From positions 1 through 64,000 of the forward strand of contig JAAYCA010000052.1 in the NCBI GenBank assembly GCA_012744435.1: DNA of 64,000 nucleotides. The letters run 5' to 3'. Position numbers and translations under genes: made by a program. Below are positions 50,428 to 52,936 of the stretch, piece after piece (the stretch's first letter is position 1; every line of letters begins with the position of its first letter). Source of the DNA: Bacteroidales bacterium (lineage in GTDB: Bacteria > Bacteroidota > Bacteroidia > Bacteroidales > UBA932). Under the pieces are notes generated by a model. It had not been told where the DNA came from and made no database searches. It saw only the letters and a program-made list of their open reading frames with translations.

Positions 50428-50438
50428 TCCTGTTTTCT

Positions 50439-50519
50439 GGCCGAAACGGCCACCCGGTTGCGGCCAAAACGGCCACCCGGTTGCAGCCAAAACGGCCACC
50501 CGGTTGCGGCCGAAACGGC
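50439..50519. repeat. 23-bp tandem repeat, about 3.5 units
   Basis: GGCCGAAACGGCCACCCGGTTGC at 50439, variants at 50462 and 50485, partial unit GGCCGAAACGGC at 50508. Confidence 0.9.
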
Positions 50520-50589
50520 GACTGACCCCTGAAAGCAAAAAAGCTCCCCGCTGGGGAAATGCTTTCGGGGGTCAGTGCCGTCTTCGGCC
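50508..50589. repeat. Extragenic nested palindrome, copy A
   Basis: GGCCGAAACGGCgACTGACCCCTGAAAGC ... aaaaaagcTCCCCGCTGGGGAaat ... GCTTTCGGGGGTCAGTGCCGTCTTCGGCC. Confidence 0.85.
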
Positions 50590-50644
50590 TCCGGGCTTGA
50601 CCCGGAATCTCCGGGAACCCGGCAGGACTATGCGGGGTTTTTTG

Positions 50645-50653: not shown

Positions 50654-52936
50654 ATGTCTATGGCCAAGGAACTGGATACCAGCATACAGTACCTCAGCGG
50701 GGTGGGTCCCAAACGGGCCGCCCTGCTGCAGCGAGAACTCGGGATCGAGACGCTATCGGACCTGATCCATCTGTACCCGTTCCGCTACATCGACCGCAGC
50801 GGCATCACCCCGATCGCCGAGGTCGCCCCCGATCTCGCCCATGTCCAGCTGCAGGCCACCGTGGTGCGCCGCACCCTCTACGGGCCCGGCAGCGCCGTCG
50901 TCTCGCAGGAGACCGACCCCATCCACTGGGGCGCCTGCAAGCGCCTTTCGGTCATCGTCCGGGATGACTCCGGCGAGATGGAGATCGTCTTTTTCAAAGG
51001 GATACGCTGGAACTACCAGCGACTGGTGCCCGGCGGGACCTTCCTGTTTTTCGGCAAGCCGCAGGCTTTCGGCGCGCGGATCAACATCGTCCATCCCGAG
51101 GTGGACGCCGCACGGGAAGCAGACGCCGTCCCGGGGACGCTCACGGGCGTGTACCCGAGCACGGAGAAACTCAAGGCGGGCGGCATCACCGGCAAGGTAA
51201 TGTGCAAGCTGCAGTCCGCCGCCCTGGCTCTCTGCCTGCCGGAGATCCAGGAGACGCTGCCGGAATACGTCCTGCGCGACCGGGGGCTGGTATCGCTGCC
51301 GTACGCGCTGCGCAACATTCATTTCCCGAAGGACACATACACCCTCCAGAAGGCCACCTACCGTCTCAAATTCGAAGAACTGTTCTTGCTGCAGCTGTCG
51401 CTGCTCAAGCAGAAATACATCCGCTCGCGCGGCGAACGGGGGCTGCTCATGCCCAAAGTGGGGCCTGACTTCCATGCGTGCTACAACGCCCTCCCCTACG
51501 AGCTTACAGGCGCCCAGCAGCGCGTCATCAAGGAGATCCGCTCCGACCTGATGAGCGGCCACCAGATGAACCGCCTGCTGCAGGGGGATGTCGGATCCGG
51601 CAAGACCATGGTGGCGGTGCTCAGCTGCCTGATGGCCATCGGCAACGGTTTCCAGACCTGCATCATGGCGCCCACCGAGGTGCTGGCGCAGCAGCATTAC
51701 GCCAATATCCAGAAATACCTGAAGCCCACTTCCGTATCCTGCGCGCTGCTGACCGGCAGCACGCCCCAGAAGGAGCGGCGAGCCATCCACGCCGCCCTGG
51801 AGGACGGCAGCCTCGGCATCATCGTCGGCACGCACGCGCTGCTGGAGGACAATGTCGTCTTCCGCAACCTCGGCCTCGCCGTCATCGACGAGCAGCACCG
51901 CTTCGGCGTGGACCAACGTTCTAAATTATGGAGTAAAGGTCCCTTGGCCGAAGGAGCTCCCGCCCCTCTGGACTTCGCTTCGCTCATCCCCCCCACTGCT
52001 TCGCAGCGGGTCCCCCCCATTTACGAGGCCATGGGTGGCCACGGTCCCGGAGGGCAGGACTCCTTCGGCCAAAACCGCATTCCGCCCCATGTGCTGGTGA
52101 TGACGGCAACGCCGATTCCAAGAACTTTGGCGATGACGCTGTACGGGGACCTGGACGTGTCGGTGATCGACGAGATGCCCCCGGGGCGCAAGCCCGTGCA
52201 GACGATGTGCATCGGGCAGAACCGCCGGGCGGCGATGTACAAGTTCATGCGGGAGGAGATCGCCCGCGGCCGCCAGGTGTTCGTGGTCTATCCGCTCATC
52301 TTCGAGAGCGAAAAGCTGGACCTGCAGAATCTGGAACAGGGCTACGAAGAGATCGTACGCGCCTTCCCGCTGCCCGGCTACAAGGTGGCCATCGTCCACG
52401 GACAGCAGACGGCGGAAGAAAAGAATTTCAACATGGCCGCCTTCGTGGCGGGCCGCGCCGACATCCTGGTCTCCACCACGGTCATCGAAGTGGGCGTGGA
52501 CGTGCCCAACGCTTCCGTAATGGTGATCGAGAGCGCCCAGCGCTTCGGGCTGAGCCAGCTCCACCAGTTGCGCGGCCGCGTGGGACGCGGCGCCGAGAAG
52601 TCCTATTGCATCCTGGTCAAGGACGTCAAGACGTCCAAGGAGGCCCAGCAGCGCCTGGATCTGATGTGCGCGACCGAAGACGGCTTCGAGATCGCCGAAC
52701 AGGACATGAAGATGCGCGGCCCGGGCGACCTCGAGGGCACCCAGCAGAGCGGCCTGCCCATCAACCTCGGGCTCGCCTCGCTCGCCCGGGACGGGCGCCT
52801 GCTCGAGGAGGCGCGCCGCTACGCCATGCAGATCCTGGATGCGGATCCCACGCTCGCAACACCGAAAAACGCCCCCTTGCAGCGGGAGCTGCGCAAGAAC
52901 AAATACGAAATCAAAGACTACAGCAAAATATCATGA
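50654..52936 (+). CDS. recG: ATP-dependent DNA helicase RecG with in-frame insertion
   Basis: LLQGDVGSGKTMVA, VIDEQHRFGVDQRSKLW, HVLVMTATPIPRTLAMTLYGDLD; extra GPLAEGAPAPLDFASLIPPTASQRVPPIYEAMGGHGPGGQDSFGQN between conserved motifs. Confidence 0.92.
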   Translation: MSMAKELDTSIQYLSGVGPKRAALLQRELGIETLSDLIHLYPFRYIDRSGITPIAEVAPDLAHVQLQATVVRRTLYGPGSAVVSQETDPIHWGACKRLSVIVRDDSGEMEIVFFKGIRWNYQRLVPGGTFLFFGKPQAFGARINIVHPEVDAAREADAVPGTLTGVYPSTEKLKAGGITGKVMCKLQSAALALCLPEIQETLPEYVLRDRGLVSLPYALRNIHFPKDTYTLQKATYRLKFEELFLLQLSLLKQKYIRSRGERGLLMPKVGPDFHACYNALPYELTGAQQRVIKEIRSDLMSGHQMNRLLQGDVGSGKTMVAVLSCLMAIGNGFQTCIMAPTEVLAQQHYANIQKYLKPTSVSCALLTGSTPQKERRAIHAALEDGSLGIIVGTHALLEDNVVFRNLGLAVIDEQHRFGVDQRSKLWSKGPLAEGAPAPLDFASLIPPTASQRVPPIYEAMGGHGPGGQDSFGQNRIPPHVLVMTATPIPRTLAMTLYGDLDVSVIDEMPPGRKPVQTMCIGQNRRAAMYKFMREEIARGRQVFVVYPLIFESEKLDLQNLEQGYEEIVRAFPLPGYKVAIVHGQQTAEEKNFNMAAFVAGRADILVSTTVIEVGVDVPNASVMVIESAQRFGLSQLHQLRGRVGRGAEKSYCILVKDVKTSKEAQQRLDLMCATEDGFEIAEQDMKMRGPGDLEGTQQSGLPINLGLASLARDGRLLEEARRYAMQILDADPTLATPKNAPLQRELRKNKYEIKDYSKIS
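51944..52072 (+). repeat. In-frame palindrome-bounded insertion element, copy 2 (recG)
   Basis: Perfect 13-bp terminal inverted repeats TTGGCCGAAGGAG (51944-51956) / CTCCTTCGGCCAA (52060-52072); core GAGGCCATGGGTGGCCACGG; 129 bp = 43 codons. Confidence 0.88.

Follow-up and report, generated by a model that had tools for sequence, protein, structure and literature searches.

An in-frame palindromic mobile element in the recG gene of a Bacteroidales bacterium, most likely translated

The 129-nt insertion in the recG gene described here is real and well delimited, a palindromic mobile element that is most likely translated in frame and not an intron. It lies in a window of 64,000 nt (the whole stretch of DNA that was analysed). 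The family to which it belongs had not been catalogued before; its members are short palindromic mobile elements of about 110-190 bp, non-autonomous, and they have repeatedly inserted, flipped and decayed inside the housekeeping genes of these bacteria. From the comparison of sequences we consider it highly probable that the reading holds as a whole, namely that a mobile palindromic family is tolerated in frame in a variable surface loop and is translated. Copies landing in genes would be tolerated only in such a loop and only in frame, and would then be translated, and the RecG protein would be made with the loop and would be functional.

The insertion in recG

The gene, the insertion and its arms are located as follows.

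50660..52936, forward strand: recG, ATP-dependent DNA helicase, 758 aa with the insert included (NCBIfam, PDB 1gm5)
51944..52072, forward strand: in-frame insertion, 129 nt, 43 codons (gap-free absence in L190, 100% presence in L185)
51944..51956, forward strand: outer left arm, 13 nt, TTGGCCGAAGGAG (inverted-repeat comparison, fold)
51957..51971, forward strand: inner left arm, imperfect stem (fold, compensatory differences against the L188 insert)
52046..52059, forward strand: inner right arm, imperfect stem (fold, compensatory differences against the L188 insert)
52060..52072, forward strand: outer right arm, 13 nt, CTCCTTCGGCCAA, exact complement of the left arm (inverted-repeat comparison, fold)

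The open reading frame of recG is uninterrupted, the NCBIfam RecG models match it above their curated cut-off with the insert skipped, and the alignment to RecG of PDB 1gm5 (E 2e-146) is split around the insert. The insert is placed between the HRFGVxQR block and TATPIPRT with the frame kept and zero stops, its 43 residues coming after the DEQHRFGV..KGP segment and ahead of the strand that leads to TATPIPRT. The encoded peptide includes GPLAEGAPAPLDFASLIPPT, and the RecG flanks on either side are KGP and NRIPPH. In the AlphaFold2 model insert residues 432-471 had pLDDT < 50 while the flanks were mostly at 80-94, so that the insert is predicted to be a disordered loop, in agreement with the expectation of the initial annotation that it could be tolerated as a loop.

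The initial annotation had described an insertion that contains a family core and ends in perfect 13-bp inverted repeats, and this was confirmed to the base. When the recG flanks were joined without the insert, they gave an ungapped 181-nt alignment to recG of L190 (Red_deer_4_mag_112). L190 is the nearest neighbour in the RecG tree (support 100/100) and is without exactly these 129 nt; therefore the net insertion is exactly the interval 51944-52072 proposed earlier. Empty sites, whose absence from all relatives would have spoken against the initial reading, were common in relatives, L190 included. The relatives that have names are MAGs of Bacteroidales from rumen and gut, and one of these is labelled Candidatus Cryptobacteroides. 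The possibility of an assembly artefact, also raised at first, was ruled out by L185, a contig from another metagenome that is 100% identical across the whole recG with the insert included, and by the in-frame orthologues. A search of metagenome contigs for strain-level polymorphism recovered a single same-species contig, which was identical.

The 13-nt arms have no other occurrence in the 2.04-Mb genome and are unique to the RecG copy. Beyond what had been noted before, the repeats extend inward as a further imperfect stem, and the insert with a few flanking bases folded more stably than 200/200 dinucleotide shuffles (z = -3.98). Just upstream of recG, at 50430-50600 of the window, we also observed repeats of the CGGCCACCCGGTTGCGGCCAAAA type, three of them in near-tandem order, and after these a long hairpin, TGACCCCTGAAAGCA...TGCTTTCGGGGGTCA.

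The element family and its conserved core

Between the arms lies the core by which the family is recognised, and a second copy of the family is present in the window.

51972..52045, forward strand: conserved family core, 74 nt (genome-wide core matches)
51992..52010, forward strand: core helix P2, CCCACTGC-TTC-GCAGCGGG, the inner hairpin CCCACTGCttcGCAGCGGG (covarying helix)
52016..52035, forward strand: core helix P3, CCCAT ... ATGGG (100% of cells paired)
52027..52040, forward strand: core helix P4, GGCC ... GGCC, overlapping P3 (97% of cells paired)
30300..31358, reverse strand: xerC-like tyrosine recombinase gene hosting the second copy (best NCBIfam match XerC, under its cut-off)
31125..31232, reverse strand: second family copy, in frame in the xerC-like gene (core match, frame classification)

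The genome under study (G000) has 32 core matches at E < 1e-4 and one partial match, that is about 33 copies, and its congener G096 has 31. The core is present in at least 66/101 congeners and in 50/151 genomes of the family, across 11/26 genera, and it also occurs in two sampled genomes from other families of the order. Named hosts include DnaX, PolA, KsgA, an RlmB/TrmH-like protein, RsmE, TrmB, the RluA family, RNase R, TldD and the XerC-like protein, and several of these host genes are normally essential. A search of two genomes with half-core patterns found no larger autonomous version. The corresponding xerC-like place in G096 holds a different subfamily of the element. In three G096 copies (H2:681611, H1:525311, H4:52132) the core encloses a second hairpin, identical in all three (CTCGAAGAGAAAATGTCCCCT...AGGGGTTAGA), and the nested hairpin at the PolA site is also present in G445.

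Core helices beyond the inner hairpin, which alone had been noticed initially, were found to covary. Among 38 distinct cores, the four-helix model had 86% of cells paired and 119 double changes vs 39 in shuffles, with a covariation score of 0.289 vs 0.091 shuffled (0/500 shuffles) and at most 0.065 when slid. P3 is always paired although A-U, U-A and G-C types occur at one pair, and P4 has G-C, A-U and U-A at one pair. Since the candidate pseudoknot of P3 and P4 would have a one-base crossing loop, we read the two helices as alternative folds, which probably alternate. The arms behave differently from the core: they are complementary within each copy and different between copies (in 63 copies the mean complementarity was 19.8 for own pairs and 7.8 when pairs were swapped), whereas the core is nearly identical between copies.

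Turnover, spread and possible inversion

At the same codon position, RecG orthologues are empty, carry the element in sense or antisense orientation, carry a second family, or retain short in-frame remnants. In the RecG tree the occupied site of G000 is sister to the empty L190, and L188, with the core in sense orientation, is sister to G096, with the core in antisense orientation, at about 97% RecG identity. The second, unrelated insert family (GTGCGTGGGC...GGGGGTGCAGGGGGTGA) was observed in frame in the same loop of L035, L038, L037 and L054 (recG of G079, G027, G064 and G080). Between G000 and L188 the identity was 85-87% in host DNA, 77-79% in the arms and 72/73 in the core, and the arms showed paired changes such as TTGGCC/GGCCAA to TTGGTC/GACCAA, so that in this sequence comparison the core is shown to diverge more slowly than the arms. 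It was considered whether the two had recently exchanged the RecG segment by horizontal transfer, and this was rejected, as the flank identity is not raised. Across the genome, several sites have been inherited vertically and have homologous arms. At most inverted sites no homology of the arms could be recognised, and orientation changes at one site could partly be independent insertions. Core variants specific to a species recur in its copies at different sites, a sign that cores are homogenised between copies, as would follow from conversion or re-insertion.

We infer that DNA-polymerase template switching between the arms at replication would keep the arms complementary and could flip the core. 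At inverted repeats, template switching is known to make the arms alike and to turn the spacer round, in coding genes included (PMC8604942), and it can create and maintain hairpins (PMC8794818). It would thus explain both the compensatory arm changes and the in-place inversion without a dedicated enzyme. The likeness to the cases described (PMC8604942, PMC8794818) extends to arm homogenisation, compensatory changes and spacer inversion; unlike their tiny spacers and 2-5 bp substitutions, a whole core of about 74 nt would be inverted here.

The origin of the arms is less certain. A small mobile core may land, and fold-back copying of host DNA (or inverted target duplication) may build copy-specific arms, after which template switching would keep the host-built hairpin perfect and could flip it. 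In G154, copies have near-identical cores and unrelated but perfectly complementary arms, 24-38 bp in many copies; in three intergenic copies the palindrome extends into the neighbouring gene's stop codon, and the gene-side end of the degP-rpoD copy is host sequence in relatives. Perfect arms entering stop codons suggest a host-derived arm extension in this genome. On the other hand, several copies with the same arms in G137 and G426 mean that arms can also travel with the core, which is counter-evidence, at the level of sequence, to the proposal that each insertion makes its own arms around a mobile core. We therefore put that proposal forward only tentatively and think it rather unlikely to hold for each insertion. 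The degP-rpoD spacer in the genus of G154 (L360-L375) is itself empty in many relatives and holds palindromic elements in several species.

A transposase acting in trans would spread the element. Four RAYT-like genes occur in G000 (C73, C46, C14, C31), a tandem array of the RecG-type element comes directly after the C73 gene, and RAYT was present in 58/66 element-bearing vs 20/35 element-free congeners, in a comparison uncorrected for kinship, genome size and completeness. Hence the element could be of REP type and be mobilised by the RAYT (Y1/HUH) transposases of the same cells. However, the element is present without a detected RAYT in some genomes, the array-adjacent C73 gene and at least C46 have their own short palindromes at their flanks, which differ from the element, and the GTAG tag was not found in the elements. 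The case for RAYT as the cognate transposase is circumstantial, and we regard this origin as doubtful though a serious candidate. Beside the RAYT gene in C31, an ORF (L084:88-1167) encodes the REP-like peptide CHPERSEG, another in-frame repeat insertion.

Inverted repeats that flank a core with open frames in both orientations, and close relatives that have the core in opposite orientation at one site, would also be seen if a recombinase flipped the core between the arms and produced two RecG isoforms, i.e. in a programmed intragenic inverton. We consider this improbable: the arms vary from copy to copy and thus offer no shared recombinase site, arm homology is usually absent at inverted sites, the hosts are housekeeping enzymes, and template switching can explain the inversion without a recombinase. 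Slightly less probable again is recruitment of the insert as a functional RecG domain for regulation or partner binding. Nucleotide conservation of the core does exceed that of the flanking gene, but sister species have the site empty, inverted, eroded or filled by an unrelated insert, one core gives different peptides, and disorder is predicted.

Reading frame, stop codons and known palindromes

The coding frame of gene-internal copies was fixed by homology to the other genome (G000 vs G096), and all 43 copies classified in this way (24 in G000, 19 in G096) were in frame and stop-free, including C33 ("frame different") and G096 H1:87532 ("stops"), both of which proved to be in frame and open when checked by eye. 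The length at the insert site was a multiple of 3 in all 113 RecG loci compared, and about two dozen long RecG inserts are among them, in which neither the reading frame nor the strand of the element is always the same. Four intergenic copies, by comparison, differed in length from the congener by numbers that are not multiples of 3, and so provide an internal control for the frame constraint on gene-internal copies. The core had 4.1/6 open frames, where shuffles gave 3.9 and segments of the genome matched for G+C gave 4.4; it is therefore not unusually stop-free for its G+C, and no special adaptation to coding was indicated. At one RecG locus, L250 (Reindeer_2_mag_58), the arms enclose about 60 nt of AT-rich sequence with stops in place of the core, which is possibly a chimeric assembly or a genuine broken insert.

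These counts bear on the suggestion of the initial annotation that the insert might be removed at the RNA level, which they do not support. A removed insert would need neither frame nor freedom from stops, and the present insert is under both constraints, so that excision from the mRNA, as a hairpin-shaped intron or an RNase-excised intervening sequence, is disfavoured. The strong hairpin, the exact ends, the structured conserved core and the stops in L250 would fit excision; the 43/43 and 113/113 counts and the fact that one and the same element is read in more than one frame and on both strands speak against it, as does the comparison of Rfam covariance models with the element, which gave no match at the gathering threshold or at E up to 10. 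We consider excision very improbable. Skipping of the hairpin by the ribosome (translational bypassing, cf. T4 gene 60 and yeast mitochondrial byps) is the least probable explanation of all, for although a hairpin does lie within the coding sequence, the frame and stop constraint would be needless and no compared gene-internal copy breaks frame. Both removal from RNA and bypassing were thus rejected on the frame and stop statistics. Judged from these sequence comparisons, the insert is most likely translated as an extra, probably unstructured 43-residue peptide loop in RecG.

Translated palindromes have a precedent in the Rickettsia palindromic elements (RPEs), which are inserted in frame inside genes (PMC10969869), and RPE-decorated proteins are expressed in R. 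conorii (PMC3733652). Like RPE-1 and its relatives, which are palindromic, multi-copy, in frame, translated and about 100-150 bp long, with diverse hosts, pseudouridine synthase and DNA repair genes among them (PMC10969869, PMC3733652), the present element is a multi-copy palindrome (129 nt, about 33 core matches) inserted in frame and stop-free in coding genes (43/43 gene-internal copies). The likeness is one of description, and the phylum is different; the arms here are copy-specific, the covarying core has several helices, and either orientation often occurs at one site. The element also resembles the intragenic GTAG/CGTC REPs, short palindromes found within genes and preferentially in those for enzymes of DNA synthesis, repair and RNA modification (PMC3733652). 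Unlike REPs, which are 20-40 bp with a tagged tetranucleotide end, it is about 110-190 bp long with a multi-helix core and long variable arms, GTAG was not seen, and CGTC was confined to one subfamily. As in MITEs, it is non-autonomous and has terminal inverted repeats with no internal gene and no transposase; unlike MITEs, the terminal repeats in this genus are mostly copy-specific rather than one common sequence. No obvious target-site duplication was found at RecG among the sites inspected by eye, and some palindromes enter the host sequence.

Mobile palindromes that are translated were so far a matter of Rickettsia and of scattered REP cases, and the finding adds a rumen and gut Bacteroidales family, with copies inside enzymes of replication, repair and RNA modification such as DnaX, PolA, RecG, the XerC-like protein and KsgA. 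It also carries a warning: where a metagenome protein of this group has an odd insertion of 40 residues, the cause can be mobile DNA and not a domain or an assembly error. At one RecG codon position the relatives provide, as a natural series, alleles that are empty, inserted, inverted, replaced or eroded, which makes the evolution of palindromes, the upkeep of arm complementarity and the gain of loops by enzymes directly testable.
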